From Cytophagaceae bacterium (GTDB lineage: Bacteria > Bacteroidota > Bacteroidia > Cytophagales > Cytophagaceae): 36,636 nucleotides of DNA. Under the pieces are notes generated by a model that was not told the origin of the DNA, did no database searches, and saw only the letters and a list, made by a program, of their open reading frames with translations. The DNA lies in NCBI GenBank assembly GCA_029237685.1, contig JAQZBV010000024.1, positions 1-36,636 on the forward strand, given 5' to 3'. Shown one piece after another: positions 7,391 through 13,015 of this stretch; position 1 is the first letter of the stretch, and every line of letters begins with the position of its first letter. A program made the translations under genes and the position numbers.

Positions 7391-8062
7391 ATGGAACAGC
7401 TCCCCATATTCACCGGCATTTTTTTTGGATTGACAACCCTCATGACGGTCCTGCTTTTCTACAGAGCAGCACGCTATTCTAAAACAGTACTGCGCATCTC
7501 CACGGGATGGCTCCTGCTGCAAGGGATCATTGCCTTGACGGGATTTTACACCGTTACAGATTCTATACCACCCAGATTCTTGCTATTGGCAGGACCTCCT
7601 TTACTATTCATCCTGCTGCTTTTTTGCACTCCACAAGGTCGTGCCTTCGTTGACCGGTTGGATCTACAAACACTCACCATGCTGCATATCATCCGAATCC
7701 CGGTGGAGCTGGTTTTATTCTGGTTGTTCTTCTTTGGTGTCGTTCCGGAGGTCATGACCTATGAAGGACGCAACTTCGATATTCTTTCCGGTCTGACAGC
7801 ACCTCTCGTTTTTTATTTTGTATTTATCAAAAACAAAATCGGTAGAAAAGCATTTTTGATCTGGAACTTCATTTGTTTGGGTTTGCTTTTCAATATTGTG
7901 ATTCATGCTGTTCTGTCTGCTCCCTCTCCTTTTCAGAAAATGGCTTTTGATCAACCCAATGTTGCCGTTTTACATTTTCCATTTATTTGGTTGCCTTGCT
8001 GTGTAGTACCCCTGGTATTGCTTTCACACCTGGCGGCCATTCGTCAGCTTATTAAAAAATAA
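7391..8062 (+). CDS. Integral membrane protein of unknown function (first of a tandem pair)
   Basis: This 223-residue protein is almost entirely hydrophobic, with about seven candidate helices. I do not recognise a named family. It is clearly a paralogue of the next gene: both share the motif LHIIRIPVELVLFWLF, the phrase LLSGLTAP or ILSGLTAP, IWNF, a QPNVAVL stretch and a C-terminal VPLVLLSHLAAIR. The most conserved polar residues are the H and R of LHxIRIP and the H of LLSHLAA, which could line a functional site in the membrane. The next gene starts two bases after its stop, so they form one operon. Confidence 0.8.
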   Translation: MEQLPIFTGIFFGLTTLMTVLLFYRAARYSKTVLRISTGWLLLQGIIALTGFYTVTDSIPPRFLLLAGPPLLFILLLFCTPQGRAFVDRLDLQTLTMLHIIRIPVELVLFWLFFFGVVPEVMTYEGRNFDILSGLTAPLVFYFVFIKNKIGRKAFLIWNFICLGLLFNIVIHAVLSAPSPFQKMAFDQPNVAVLHFPFIWLPCCVVPLVLLSHLAAIRQLIKK

Positions 8063-8064
8063 AA

Positions 8065-8760
8065 ATGGATCAGCTACCCGCGTTAACCGGCATATTTTTC
8101 GTACTCACTACAGCCCTCACCATTTTGATTTTTCATGGTGCCAGCTATTTCTCTAAAACCGTTCTTCGGGTACTTTTGATATGGCTTGGCCTTCAAGCCG
8201 TATTGGCCATTGCCGGATTTTATATCCTAAGTGATTTTATACCCTTGCGGTTTTTAATACAGCTTTTACCGATCGTCTTGTTTATTTTCGGTGTATTCAA
8301 CACGCTCAAAGGAAAACTATTCATCGATAGTTTAGATCTTCCTGCTCTCACGCTTTTACATGTCATTAGAATACCTTTGGAATTGGTTTTGTTCTGGTTG
8401 TTTTTTTACCAAGACCAACCCGCCATCAGTATTTTTGAACTGCGTAATCTCGACCTTCTATCCGGTCTTACGGCGCCGGTCATGTTGTATCGCGTGTTTA
8501 TCAAAAACAACCTGAGCAAAAAAGCACTGTTGATATGGAATTTTACAAGCATGACGTTGCTTCTAACTACTGTCGTATATGCCGTCTTAGCTGCGCCTTT
8601 ACCCTATGCTTATATAGACAGTCAACAGCCGAATGTCGCCGTATTATATTTCCCCTTTCTTTGGATGTCTTGCTGTATAGTACCTTTGGTCTTGCTCTCA
8701 CACCTGGCTGCCATCAGACTGATTTTGCGTAGCCAACCTGCCTATCCTTCTTTTGCATGA
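8065..8760 (+). CDS. Integral membrane protein of unknown function (second of a tandem pair)
   Basis: This 231-residue protein has the same seven-helix-like hydrophobic pattern as its upstream neighbour and aligns with it along the whole length, with closest agreement in LHVIRIPLELVLFWLFF, LLSGLTAP, QPNVAVL and VPLVLLSHLAAIR. The middle loops differ (YQDQPAISIFELR against FGVVPEVMTYEGR), so the two copies are well diverged and not a recent duplication. No catalytic signature is visible. Joint expression could mean a heterodimer, but that is inference only. Confidence 0.8.
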   Translation: MDQLPALTGIFFVLTTALTILIFHGASYFSKTVLRVLLIWLGLQAVLAIAGFYILSDFIPLRFLIQLLPIVLFIFGVFNTLKGKLFIDSLDLPALTLLHVIRIPLELVLFWLFFYQDQPAISIFELRNLDLLSGLTAPVMLYRVFIKNNLSKKALLIWNFTSMTLLLTTVVYAVLAAPLPYAYIDSQQPNVAVLYFPFLWMSCCIVPLVLLSHLAAIRLILRSQPAYPSFA

Positions 8761-8864: not shown

Positions 8865-10064
8865 CTAGAACGTGAAATTTTTCTTTTGGGCCTGAACCCT
8901 GATTGCATGGATCATAGACTTGTCCAGCATATTTTCTTTGTCGTTTTTCTTCTGCGCCAATAAAAACTCTGTGCGTTTCTTATTTAATTCCTGAATCTCT
9001 GTTTTGATTTTCTCCCGCTCCACCGTTTTTTGTTTGACGTAGTTCTTCTTTTGATCATCCGTCATGTTTTTCATGGCATCAGGAAGTTCGTCTTTGGAGA
9101 CCTTGGTGACATCAAACGACTTGTCTTCCGCTGCATCTACCATGTCCCAGGATTTGTTTTTATACACGTGTGTTGATTTGGAAACGGCGCGGTTCACTTT
9201 ATTCTCTGCTCCGTAGCTTTCAGACTCCGCGTCTTGTCTGGATTGCATTTCTTTTTTCTTCAAGCCTTCGCTTCCATACTCAATGTAAGTGCCATTCAAT
9301 TGCGTATTCAATTGATCGATCTTGTCGTCATAAGGAGAAGGAATAAAAACTGTTTTAGAATTTTGCTCGATGCTGGCATAAGTGCCGGAAGCCAGGTCCG
9401 CACCGGATTTCCAGGAGGTGTTGATGCCTTCCTGAAAGTCTCCGCAGAAAATGGTATTCACCACAATATTTTTGCGCTTTGCTTCCGCACAGGCTAATTG
9501 GTAATTGATAGAGCCTTGAGTAAACGTTTCGTTTCCTGCGATGAAAATGATTTGCAAATCACCACCGTCAGCGGACCAATCCAATTGCCGACAAGCGGTT
9601 TGAATGACGTGTCCGCAAAACTCACTTCCGCCGTTTGTTTTTAATCCGAATAAATCCTGTGACAATTTATCCAGGTCATTGGTCAATGGAGTAACCAAGC
9701 GAATGTAACCTTCGCTTGCCGGTAATGCGTCGTTGCCGTATTCGTACAAAGCGATTTGCACTTCGGGTTTCGCACCGTCGCATTTAGCCGTTGCCAACTC
9801 GTTGACAATCGTCCAAAGTTGTGACTTGGCCTGATCGATCAGCCCGTCCATGCTTCCGCTGGTATCTAGTAAGAGCGCCAGCTTAATCTTTTTTGCCGCC
9901 TGTGTTTCTGTGCGATCTACAGGCATGCCTGTTTGTGATCTTACTTCTTTGGGATTGACTTTATAGGTATAGGTGCGGGCATGACTGCTATACACAACCA
10001 CCATTCCGATCAGAAAGGCGAAAGGCAGCAACAGGTAAAGGGAATTATTCACTATCTTTTTCAT
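8865..10064 (-). CDS. Membrane-anchored VWA domain protein
   Basis: This 399-residue protein has one N-terminal hydrophobic helix (about residues 8-26), probably an uncleaved anchor, so the rest lies outside the inner membrane. A von Willebrand factor A domain follows (about 60-260). The metal-site signature DTSGS is at residues 67-71, and a TNGGSE loop lies further on. At the position of the usual TDG strand end the sequence reads IAGNE, so the third metal ligand is altered. The C-terminal 120 residues are lysine and glutamate rich and look coiled-coil. It is divergent from the TPR-LytS/LytTR pair and may be one of its targets; this is inferred from position only. Confidence 0.88.
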   Translation of the reverse strand: MKKIVNNSLYLLLPFAFLIGMVVVYSSHARTYTYKVNPKEVRSQTGMPVDRTETQAAKKIKLALLLDTSGSMDGLIDQAKSQLWTIVNELATAKCDGAKPEVQIALYEYGNDALPASEGYIRLVTPLTNDLDKLSQDLFGLKTNGGSEFCGHVIQTACRQLDWSADGGDLQIIFIAGNETFTQGSINYQLACAEAKRKNIVVNTIFCGDFQEGINTSWKSGADLASGTYASIEQNSKTVFIPSPYDDKIDQLNTQLNGTYIEYGSEGLKKKEMQSRQDAESESYGAENKVNRAVSKSTHVYKNKSWDMVDAAEDKSFDVTKVSKDELPDAMKNMTDDQKKNYVKQKTVEREKIKTEIQELNKKRTEFLLAQKKNDKENMLDKSMIHAIRVQAQKKNFTF

Positions 10065-10104
10065 GTTCCTTTGTTTTGGTTTATGAAGGGAACCTACGTC
10101 GATC

Positions 10105-10177
10105 TTTCACAAAGGCAAATGCAGACTTAGGCAACCGACACTTTCACTGAGTGAAACAAGCCTTTCACCGAGGGAAA
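10105..10177. promoter_or_regulatory. Candidate operator: repeated TTTCAC dyads in a divergent promoter region
   Basis: TTTCACTGAGTGAAA at 10142-10156 is a perfect palindrome with 7-base arms. A near copy, TTTCACCGAGGGAAA, lies at 10163-10177, exactly 21 bp away, which puts both on the same DNA face. A weaker third copy, TTTCACAAAGGCAAA, is at 10105-10119. The site lies between the VWA gene start at 10064 and the kinase start at 10248. Confidence 0.55.
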
Positions 10178-10189
10178 TTTTTATGCTGT

Positions 10190-10226
10190 TTGGAGTACCT
10201 AAATAGCTGATTATCCAGTACATTTG
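10190..10226 (+). promoter_or_regulatory. Possible promoter of the TPR-LytS/LytTR operon
   Basis: TACATTTG at 10219-10226 matches TAnnTTTG in full and lies 21 bases before the ATG at 10248. The nearest clear upstream TTG (10190-10192) is 26 bases away, longer than the usual spacing. The dyad pair at 10142-10177 lies just upstream, a position suited to an activator. Confidence 0.45.
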
Positions 10227-10247: not shown

Positions 10248-12203
10248 ATGATCTATAAACAGCTGTTTCTTGTTTCATTCCTGTTACTTTCATTTCTCTC
10301 CGGCTACAGCCAGGAGATAAAATCGAAGAAGTTTTCTTCGGTAAGCTCTGCCAGCAGGCAAGGAAACAGTGTAGCGCTCTTGCTGCAGAAAGCCGAAAGC
10401 CTTTCCGACAAAGACCCGAAGGCGGCACTGGATTACCTGGAACAAGCCTTGAGCATTAGTTTACAGGAAGGCGATAAAATCGGTGAAGCAAATACTTATG
10501 TGGTGTTGGGAAATTTGAATTCCAAACAAAAGCTTTATGCTCAAGCCATCAATTTTTATGGTAAAGCGCTTCCTCTCTTTGAAAAAGAAAAACAAACTGC
10601 TCTGGTATTAAAAACAAGAAAACACTTGGGCGCTGTCTACGAAAAAAATTCCGCCTACGACAATGCCTTGGATCAATACAAAAAAGGATTGAAAGAAGCG
10701 GAAGAAGCTAAGAATAGCACAGAAGTCCTGGCCTTTAAAAATGCCATGGCAAACATCTACAAATTGCAAGGCAAAAACGAAGAGGCGCTTACGCTGTACA
10801 AAGAGGTGTTGCAAAAGGAAAAAAGGAAACAGAATAAATCCGGTGAACGTGAAGCCTATGACAACATGGGTGATGTATACATTCAGCAAAATAAAGTAGA
10901 AGAAGCCAAAGAGGTTTACCAAAGTGCGCAGGAAAGCGCGCTGCAGGATAAAGACCAAAAAGACCTGAGCAAGTCCTACGACAAAATGGCCAATACCTAT
11001 AAGCTGGAAGGAAAAACAGAAGATGAGTTAGTACTGCGTAAAAAGAAAGCGGAAGTCAGCGATAAAAGAAACGACGAGGAAGCTTTAGCAAAAGACTATT
11101 TAGAAATCGGTCAACTTTATCTCACACAAAAAAAACCGGAACAAGCGTTGGACTACCTCAACAGGAGTGTAAACCTTTCTAAAAATAAAGGCCTGTTAGA
11201 AGTGGAAGCAAAATCGCAAGAAGCCATTTCAGATGTATACAAACAACAACAAAACTATTCCAAAGCACTGGAGCATTATCAGTTGTACGTGGAGGCGAAA
11301 GACTCTTTGCTTTCTTCCAGAGAAAGCAGAGTCAATACGATGATCAGTTTCAACGATGAATTGTCCTTAAAGCAAAAACAAATAGACTTGTTGGAGAAAG
11401 ACATGCAATTGAATGAAAAAACCATTCAATTGTTAAACGAAGAAAAAAGTTTTTCCAAACTGGTCATCTATGCGTTGATCATGGGCTTGCTGATTGTTTT
11501 GGTCAGTTCCTGGATGGTTTACATCAATGCCAAGAAGCGCCGTGCCGCTAATCAGTCACTGGTTTTGCGTTCCTTAAGAAGTCAGATGAATCCACACTTC
11601 ATCTTCAATGCCTTAAACTCCGTGAATAATTTCATTTCTAAAAATGACGAGCGGTCCGCCAATAAATACCTGTCCGACTTTTCTAAATTGATGCGAACCG
11701 TCATGGAAAATTCCCGTTACGAGTTCATCAGTTTAGCCACCGAACAAAGCATTTTGCAATTGTACCTTTCGCTGGAACATGCACGCTTCAAAGACAAGTT
11801 TGATTATACACTCACCGTATCGGAAGAACTCTCTCAGGAGCAAACACAGATTCCACCCATGTTGATCCAGCCTTACATAGAAAATGCCATCTGGCATGGC
11901 TTGCGTTACAAGGAAGAAAAAGGATTGTTGACCGTCAGCATCCTCCCGCATGGCGAAGAAGTAGTGGTCACGATTGAAGACAACGGCATCGGCAGAAAAA
12001 AATCCGCGGAACTGAAAACACACAATCAGAAAGACAAAGATTCAATCGGATTAAAAAATACAGAGGCACGCATTGGCATTATCAATGAATTGTATAAAAC
12101 CCACCTGCGCGTGAACATCGAAGACCTTGATCCGGTCACCGGAAGCGGTACAAAAGTAACCTTATACATCACACAAACACCCACTGCACACCATGAAGCT
12201 TAA
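10248..12203 (+). CDS. TPR-containing LytS-type sensor histidine kinase
   Basis: This 651-residue kinase has a signal peptide (IYKQLFLVSFLLLSFLSGYSQ), about eight TPR repeats (about residues 30-370) placed in the periplasm, a short coiled coil, one transmembrane helix (about 405-425), and a His_kinase domain of the LytS/YehU class. The phospho-acceptor is H450 in MNPHFIFN; the ATPase has IENAIWHGL and IEDNGIG. I chose the ATG at 10248 rather than the TTG at 10224 because it begins a clean signal peptide and the TTG sits inside a promoter-like element. The 3' end overlaps the LytTR gene by 11 bases, so they form a two-component pair. Confidence 0.92.
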   Translation: MIYKQLFLVSFLLLSFLSGYSQEIKSKKFSSVSSASRQGNSVALLLQKAESLSDKDPKAALDYLEQALSISLQEGDKIGEANTYVVLGNLNSKQKLYAQAINFYGKALPLFEKEKQTALVLKTRKHLGAVYEKNSAYDNALDQYKKGLKEAEEAKNSTEVLAFKNAMANIYKLQGKNEEALTLYKEVLQKEKRKQNKSGEREAYDNMGDVYIQQNKVEEAKEVYQSAQESALQDKDQKDLSKSYDKMANTYKLEGKTEDELVLRKKKAEVSDKRNDEEALAKDYLEIGQLYLTQKKPEQALDYLNRSVNLSKNKGLLEVEAKSQEAISDVYKQQQNYSKALEHYQLYVEAKDSLLSSRESRVNTMISFNDELSLKQKQIDLLEKDMQLNEKTIQLLNEEKSFSKLVIYALIMGLLIVLVSSWMVYINAKKRRAANQSLVLRSLRSQMNPHFIFNALNSVNNFISKNDERSANKYLSDFSKLMRTVMENSRYEFISLATEQSILQLYLSLEHARFKDKFDYTLTVSEELSQEQTQIPPMLIQPYIENAIWHGLRYKEEKGLLTVSILPHGEEVVVTIEDNGIGRKKSAELKTHNQKDKDSIGLKNTEARIGIINELYKTHLRVNIEDLDPVTGSGTKVTLYITQTPTAHHEA

Positions 12204-12942
12204 AGCCATCATTGTCGACGACGAAGAAGCCAGCCGGGACACACTGAAAAATTATTTGGGACGCTATTGCCCGGATGTGGAGTTGATGGCGCAAGCCGAT
12301 TCGGTAAAAAAAGGGATTGAGGCCATTCGTCAACACCAGCCGGATATTGTTTTTCTGGATGTAGAAATGCCTTATGGCAATGCCTTCGATTTATTGGAGC
12401 AAGTGCAGGATGTTTCTTTTGAAACCGTATTTGTGACTGCCTTCAGCAATTACGCCCTGAAAGCCCTTAACCTCAGCGCTTCTTATTACATTTTGAAACC
12501 GATTGAAATCGACGAGTTGATTTCTGCGGTTGAAAAAATAAGGAAACAAAAAGAAGAACACAAAGAGTTGTTGCACACCAAAATTTTGGTAGAGAACATC
12601 CACACTGAAAACAAACAGGCGCAAAAAATTGTGTTGCCTTTGTTGGACGGTTTTGAAGTCATACAAGTGAAAAACATCATTCGTTGTGAAGCCAATGATA
12701 ATTTCACCGATTTTATTTTAACCGGCAACCGAAAAGTCATGATCTGCCGTACCCTCAAGCATTATGAAACGATGCTGGAAGATTATAATTTTGTGCGTGT
12801 ACACAAGTCGCACCTCATCAATGTGCAGCACGTGACCAAATACCTGAAAGGCAAAGGAGGGCAGCTGATCATGAGCGATCAGTCCTATGTGGATGTGTCG
12901 CCGAATAAAAAAGAGGTATTGATGCAGCGGTTTATCGGATAA
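12193..12942 (+). CDS. LytTR family response regulator
   Basis: This 249-residue regulator has a receiver domain (about residues 3-120) with phospho-acceptor D56 in FLDVEMP, switch threonine in VTAFSNYA and the lysine in LKPI. A C-terminal LytTR DNA-binding domain (about 145-247) includes ANDNFTDF and FVRVHKSHLINVQHV. Proteins of this type usually bind pairs of short repeats spaced about two helical turns apart. The gene overlaps the kinase gene, which is its obvious partner. A candidate operator with 21-bp spacing lies upstream of the kinase, suggesting autoregulation and control of the VWA gene. Confidence 0.93.
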   Translation: MKLKAIIVDDEEASRDTLKNYLGRYCPDVELMAQADSVKKGIEAIRQHQPDIVFLDVEMPYGNAFDLLEQVQDVSFETVFVTAFSNYALKALNLSASYYILKPIEIDELISAVEKIRKQKEEHKELLHTKILVENIHTENKQAQKIVLPLLDGFEVIQVKNIIRCEANDNFTDFILTGNRKVMICRTLKHYETMLEDYNFVRVHKSHLINVQHVTKYLKGKGGQLIMSDQSYVDVSPNKKEVLMQRFIG

Positions 12943-12946
12943 TAGA

Positions 12947-13015
12947 GAGAACTGAAAACAGAAAACTGAGAACTGATTTCGGTTCTCAGTTTTCTGTTTT
13001 CTGTTTTCTGTTCTA
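12947..13015. repeat. Heptanucleotide repeat arranged as a long hairpin, likely terminator
   Basis: The stretch divides into 7-base units: GAGAACT, GAAAACA and GAAAACT types on the left, GTTCTCA and GTTTTCT types on the right. The left arm 12954-12973 and right arm 12982-13001 are perfectly complementary over 20 bases with an 8-base loop. It begins five bases after the LytTR stop and probably ends that transcript. Confidence 0.75.

Follow-up and report, generated by a model that had tools for sequence, protein, structure and literature searches.

The locus examined herein raises the question of what function is served by the repeats between a VWA protein gene and a divergently transcribed sensor kinase gene. 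We analyzed a 36,636-nt contig of a Cytophagaceae bacterium (the window, i.e., the whole stretch of DNA at its full length). We conclude that positions 10125-10176 are very probably the DNA landing site of the neighboring two-component regulator. The evidence throughout is comparative sequence, in which the repeats, their conservation, their placement with the operon, and the promoter register are direct observations. The features of the locus are as follows.

8865-10064, minus strand: VWA protein gene (399 aa, N-terminal hydrophobic stretch), the predicted target
10089-10096, minus strand: predicted -7 element of the VWA promoter, TAGGTTCC, 19 bp after TTTG
10116-10119, minus strand: predicted -33 element of the VWA promoter, TTTG, 5 bp beyond box 1
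10125-10134, plus strand: box 1, ACTTAGGCAA, VWA-proximal, 21 bp before box 2
10146-10155, plus strand: box 2, ACTGAGTGAA, within the first dyad of the initial annotation
10167-10176, plus strand: box 3, ACCGAGGGAA, within the second dyad of the initial annotation
10219-10226, plus strand: predicted -7 element of the kinase-regulator operon, TACATTTG
10248-12203, plus strand: sensor kinase gene (TPR repeats followed by a His_kinase domain of the LytS type and a weak HATPase_c match)
12193-12942, plus strand: LytTR response regulator gene, encoding the presumed binder

The VWA protein matched Pfam VWA_2 with an E value of 7.9e-06 and 26.9 bits, slightly below the cut-off of 27, and its start codon lies 60 bp from the array of three boxes. 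The kinase matched PF13424 (E 4.9e-29) and PF06580 (E 7.4e-21), and the regulator matched Response_reg (E 1.7e-18) and LytTR (E 1.3e-14). The reading frames of the two genes overlap by 11 bases. A LytS-type kinase (His_kinase, PF06580) shares an operon with a receiver-LytTR regulator, as expected of a LytS/LytTR two-component system. In a structure search with the regulator, the best 60 of 125 matches covered the receiver domain only, and none bore on DNA contacts.

The initial annotation described two dyads 21 bp apart between the VWA and kinase genes and a weaker third copy at 10105. The two dyads, TTTCACTGAGTGAAA (10142-10156) and TTTCACCGAGGGAAA (10163-10177), are present as described and equal their own reverse complements at 14 and 10 of 15 positions, respectively. 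The copy at 10105 (TTTCACAAAGGCAAA) was discarded: it starts 37 bp before the first dyad, outside the 21-bp register, shares 8 of 15 positions with its own reverse complement, and is not preserved in three same-genus relatives. The predicted -33 element of the VWA promoter overlaps this copy. An in-register repeat, ACTTAGGCAA, had been overlooked, and its inclusion gives three direct repeats at 21-bp steps. Their geometry is one of 10-nt boxes and 11-nt spacers (period of 21 bp), with the consensus A[AC]T[GT]AGT[GA]AA. When the four same-genus sequences were excluded from matrix training, the triple at 10124 scored 29.7, whereas the best score on either strand of 100 first-order Markov sequences of the window's size was 20.5 (mean of maxima, 6.7). 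Other spacings of 15-29 bp at the array position scored at most -2.2. Single-box scores with a matrix lacking same-genus training were 9.2, 13.7, and 6.8 for boxes 1, 2, and 3, respectively; boxes 1 and 3 of the window are imperfect.

The regulator search yielded 412 confirmed relatives, the best 80 of which were kept. The window and 78 of the 80 loci supplied kinase upstream regions, L027 being too short and L069 having no kinase match. An opposite-strand VWA match lies in the same stretch in 55 of the 79 regions. Three loci belong to the same genus as the window (L021, L022, and L023; regulator identities of 98, 92, and 97%, respectively). When their intergenic DNA was aligned with that of the window, the three repeats were kept. 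Box 1 is retained in all four same-genus sequences and box 2 is degenerate in L022 (ACTCCGCGAA), while the left dyad arms vary. Two further blocks are conserved in this genus, TAAAT[AC][GA]CTGATTATCCAGTACATTTGTT before the kinase gene and GAAC[CT]TACG before the VWA gene. L021 (from 2600) and L023 (from 2601) carry an extra gene for a 142-aa secreted-looking protein between the array and kinase, which is absent from the window.

With no motif assumed, 10-mers were compared at lags of 12 to 44 (33 lags) in the 79 upstream regions. Lag 21 gave pairs (at least 9 of 10) in 25 regions and triples (at least 15 of 20) in 37. The double lag of 42 gave 13 pairs and 11 triples, and the remaining lags 0-7 and 0-6, respectively. 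A Gibbs search, in which three boxes and the 21-bp step were preset, was started once from the lag-21 identity and 29 times at random. None of the random starts was better than the lag-21 start, and the resulting matrix placed 61 of the 79 regions above 20. The final matrix was trained without 14 regions that had no array within their 400 bp, which were removed by hand. In a scan of whole loci with this matrix, which apart from the 14 held-out loci was tested on its own training loci, 67 of the 80 loci had an array above 20, each at a single place and on the same strand as the kinase; the other 13 had none above 20. Seven of the 14 held-out loci are among the 67, with arrays located beyond the 400-bp training regions. 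Loci from Cytophagales, Bacteroidales, and Flavobacteriales are represented among those with arrays; however, the locus counts are not independent because many of the 80 are closely related Flavobacteriaceae. The checks independent of training are the held-out loci, the same-genus exclusion, the lag test, and the promoter register. Over 80 arrays, a single box scored above 5 at offset 0 in 80, at offset 21 in 77, and at offset 42 in only 62, which makes box 3 the weakest of the three. The same score was exceeded at offset -42 in 4 arrays, and at -21 or +63, where a fourth box would lie, in none of the 80. By eye, many of the flavobacterial kinases (L043-L100) have an extra N-terminal CarboxypepD_reg-like stretch.

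The array lies between two promoters. It may be a LytTR-type operator for the kinase-regulator operon only (autoregulation), with the VWA gene as a bystander; however, we regard this explanation as unlikely. The kinase-side -7 element does lie at a fixed distance within each lineage, which is consistent with autoregulation: TAnnTTT occurs at offset 68 after box 3 in 51 of 69 kinase-linked arrays and at offset 41 in 7 of 69, including the window, where TACATTTG sits in a block identical in all four same-genus sequences. The array also accompanies the kinase at loci that gave no VWA gene in the vicinity, such as L052, L057, L060, and L074. However, the array is contiguous with the divergent promoter and not with the kinase promoter, and the placement before the kinase operon in the initial annotation needs to be changed accordingly. 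On the divergent side, counted from the 12-bp box, 45 of 69 kinase-linked arrays carry TAnnTTT at offset 27 (next best linked offset, 8). Of 14 unlinked arrays, 7 have it at offset 27 and one at offset 26. None of the three arrays in the window's own genome has the exact TAnnTTT at offset 27; TA is present with one mismatch further on, and the window reads TAGGTTC. TAGGTTCC shows one or two departures from TAnnTTTG, given as the -7 box of a flavobacterium in the available text of PMC9723704. Bacteroides promoters with a 19-bp spacer are included in Table 3 of PMC6193735. Of the columns next to box 1 in 81 arrays, the most conserved include the upstream A-run, which reads as a T-run on the VWA strand. 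As in LytTR operators, the repeats closely precede the -35 element (here -33) of the predicted target promoter. Based on the fixed offset and contiguity on the VWA side, the array resembles a site from which the divergent gene is activated, and it may also feed back on the kinase operon.

The identity of the divergent genes also bears on autoregulation. For the 68 kinase-linked arrays scoring above 20, the closest divergent frame, sought within 110 bp, encodes a VWA protein in 32 (30 close and 2 distant), a SIMPL protein in 20, and another protein in 2, and no frame was called in 14. VWA or SIMPL is the nearest in 52 of the 68, which argues against the divergent gene being a bystander. L023 is one of the 14 without a called frame, yet its VWA match starts 60 bp from the array; therefore, the frame caller missed some divergent genes. 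In 14 of the 20 SIMPL cases, a same-strand VWA match comes next; the gap is estimated at -30 to 63 bp for 10 of them and at 419 to 576 bp for the other 4. The remaining 6 loci yielded no VWA gene.

When up to 3 mismatches are allowed, the array pattern matches at three places in the window's own genome and the reversed pattern at none. A two-box search at 3 mismatches gave 6 matches, 5 in the same three arrays and one weak match at C80, against 3 in the control. The loose triple pattern at 2 mismatches (45 matches versus 51 in the reversed control) was uninformative alone. The second array precedes an ARPP-1 lipoprotein gene (Pfam E 1.3e-52) by 58 bp, and the third precedes a gene for a 114-aa secreted-looking protein with no Pfam match by 57 bp. 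Since the opposite flanking gene reads towards the array in both cases, each has one candidate target. A gene starts solely on the VWA-like side of these two arrays, which is not expected of an operator for autoregulation only.

Similar arrangements were found in other genomes. In G007, an array lies 58 bp before an ARPP-1-like gene (by eye). Arrays of two family genomes (G015 and G017) precede SIMPL genes. SIMPL genes adjoin the array divergently at flavobacterial kinase loci, and also at places unlinked to the kinase in genomes of the Sporocytophaga group and Eudoraea. In G015, G016, and G017, arrays precede a gene for a 231-aa secreted protein with no Pfam family above the cut-off, and these arrays lack the -7 element at offset 27. 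An array of G018 has no gene called beside it. A search of 20 genomes of the flavobacterial loci at up to 2 mismatches gave 20 matches in 16 genomes. Since the reversed control gave 5 matches, single flavobacterial matches may be due to chance. Five of the 20 matches are unlinked to the kinase. Two of them, in Lacinutrix, adjoin genes for a CarbopepD-plug protein (Pfam) and a 214-aa secreted protein that has no Pfam match and is VWA-like by eye. The others are in Hanstruepera (a CarbopepD-plug-like gene by eye, start 103 bp away), Psychroserpens (no gene called), and Eudoraea (a SIMPL gene by Pfam). TAnnTTT occurs at offset 27 in four of the five and at offset 26 in the fifth, an agreement that chance would not be expected to produce.

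We regard it as unlikely that the array serves a different regulator, either another LytTR protein or a member of another family using 21-bp direct repeats. The genome has seven LytTR genes, which leaves room for this explanation; however, only the gene at 12193 is near an array, and the other six have none within 5 kb. At the family level, 6 of the 9 genomes that encode the regulator have an array (up to 3 mismatches), as do 2 of the 10 others. The latter two are G013, with one weak match, and G018, in which the VWA and kinase genes are present and the regulator was not found at the threshold used. The VWA gene of G018 (C4:438869-439919) was matched as two overlapping pieces, which may reflect either decay or an assembly error. 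In G006, the regulator is present and the array is recognizable but more degenerate. Relatives of the regulator (E up to 1e-70) occur in 26 of 198 genomes of the class sample. A match was found in 10 of these 26 and in 29 of the 172 without the regulator, while the reversed control matched in 24 of the 198; several class-sample matches are long 21-bp tandem repeats, and the class-wide pattern was used only for arrays near a regulator gene. The co-occurrence of the array and regulator at the genome level is only moderate, which favors a different regulator to some extent. Against this, 7 of the 26 class genomes with the regulator have, among the matches listed, an array approximately 2 kb upstream of it on the same strand. 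One of the seven has a second array at 2.8 kb, and two (G131 and G195) repeat the arrays of L028 and L030.

The dyads may instead be palindromic operators, namely, two adjoining dimers of a helix-turn-helix regulator encoded elsewhere. We consider this very unlikely, even though the first dyad is nearly palindromic and the mean score of reverse-orientation boxes, which are weak, is the best at the dyad position (offset 18). This score is -4.4 at best, whereas direct boxes score 8.9 to 11.7. Arm complementarity over 81 arrays approximates that given by column composition (largest excess, 58 versus 50.0; 18 pairs). Moreover, the same-genus relatives preserve the direct repeats but not the dyad arms. 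When orthologous loci were compared as the initial annotation had suggested, the dyads as such were not conserved and the direct repeats inside them were. The absence of the dyads looked like a refutation until the direct repeats were aligned. The palindromy is incidental, with the direct repeat being the conserved unit. Among 15 loci scanned, a search with the dyad as the unit found it at the right place only in L008, which is the window's own copy; L011 and L022, from the same genome, have one degenerate copy. A looser dyad pattern at up to 2 mismatches has 14 matches in the window versus 6.88 expected, and 14 was reached in 1 of 100 shuffles. Across the genome, the exact dyad-like pattern shows hardly any enrichment, with 4 matches forward and 5 in reverse versus 2 and 2 in the reversed control (palindromes being counted twice).

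Chance or a simple tandem repeat, such as 21-bp satellite units or heptad-coding DNA, is scarcely credible because, although 21-bp periodic DNA occurs elsewhere, with long arrays in two family and several class genomes, the present array is intergenic with three boxes and no fourth, its spacers are not conserved whereas distances to start codons and -7 elements are fixed, and its boxes are conserved with diverged spacers in other orders. Tandem arrays of 21 bp were observed at L155 1504-1802 (G015; 14.2 copies) and L153 1485-1717 (G016; 11.1 copies); their unit resembles TAGGAAAAGAGAATTCCTACA and was also caught by the array pattern.

We therefore favor a three-box LytTR operator, at which the regulator encoded at 12193 probably activates the VWA promoter, with the two further arrays belonging to its regulon. 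Judging from its family, the TPR sensor kinase would detect a signal and phosphorylate the LytTR regulator, in which Asp56 is the likely phosphorylation site given its position in the sequence. The regulator may then bind the three direct repeats, which would be on one face of the DNA because they are two helical turns apart. The bound protein is predicted to help RNA polymerase start at the VWA promoter, which begins 5 bp beyond box 1; activation rather than repression is presumed from the family. On the same basis, the array may feed back on the kinase-regulator operon through the -7 element at a lineage-fixed distance. The two additional arrays would place the ARPP-1 lipoprotein gene and the small secreted-protein gene in the same regulon. 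The initial suggestion that the repeats are the operator of this regulator and link the VWA gene to its regulon is strengthened by their conservation with the operon across Bacteroidota, 21-bp geometry, two more arrays in the genome, and fixed promoter register. It is revised in that the unit is a direct repeat rather than a dyad, three boxes are in register without the copy at 10105, and the adjoining promoter is on the VWA side.

According to the available text of PMC4847170, LytTR proteins bind two direct (or inverse) repeats of 9-11 nt, which are 11-13 nt apart and have no common sequence. The length and spacing of the present boxes are within these ranges, and the idea that repeats approximately two helical turns apart are LytTR-like held up. 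The number of repeats differs, with three boxes and no fourth. Since two repeats are described in that text as usual for almost all members of the family, the three-box array is a variant of the LytTR operator and is not excluded from the class. The YpdA/YpdB system of Escherichia coli, as described in the same text, also comprises a LytS-type kinase and a LytTR response regulator with 10-nt direct repeats. However, it has two boxes (sites A and B) and the single direct target yhjX, the operator box of which, GGCATTTCAT, differs from the array box. The present system has three boxes, a divergent gene pair, and several predicted targets.

Promoters of LRS systems, in the portion of PMC6193735 available, have direct repeats with 11-13-bp spacers just before the -35 element, and LRS-like operons of Bacteroides show 11-bp spacing and a TGTA-19 bp-TATCTTTG promoter. 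An LRS repeat such as ACCACTTAT shares 6 of 9 positions in the same orientation with the flavobacterial target-strand box TTCACTCAT. However, LRS promoters have two repeats, and an inhibitory membrane protein is the partner of the regulator, whereas the present system has three repeats and a receiver-domain regulator, the partner of which is a TPR histidine kinase; therefore, it is not an LRS. AgrA of Staphylococcus aureus is, similar to the present case, a LytTR activator on direct repeats between divergent promoters (agr P2-P3), but has separate binding sites per promoter centered near -60, according to the available text of PMC4227749. The present array is a single shared triple that abuts one of two promoters. 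The array differs from these published LytTR sites in its constant third box, its position shared by two divergent genes, and its set of targets.

TPR-LytS/LytTR systems are common in Bacteroidota. No operator or regulon was described for them among the literature matches listed, which were open-licence papers and constitute weak evidence. The three-box signature with its fixed promoter register may make targets readable from the genome sequence. It would also tie secreted VWA, SIMPL/DUF541, and ARPP-1 proteins, families of unclear role, to one signaling system. We tentatively speculate, with more doubt than confidence, that the array marks an undescribed envelope regulon across Bacteroidota, in which a TPR kinase and LytTR regulator control VWA, SIMPL, ARPP-1, and CarbopepD-plug genes; the open-licence papers among the literature matches listed gave no earlier description of it. 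If so, the constant third box and shared divergent layout may represent a cooperative switch that is distinct from known two-site LytTR promoters, and the TPR domain of the sensor may receive feedback from a secreted product, such as the VWA protein.

Two minor observations were made elsewhere in the window. The adjoining membrane-protein genes at 7391-8062 and 8065-8760 resemble a tandem duplication by eye. A strong hairpin at 12946-13009 (-42.6 kcal/mol, z -8.6), built from CTGTTTTCTG-type sequence, directly follows the 3' end of the LytTR gene. An 18-base piece of this hairpin has 24 genomic matches at up to 1 mismatch and the reversed control has none; therefore, the hairpin may be a dispersed repeat serving as a terminator.
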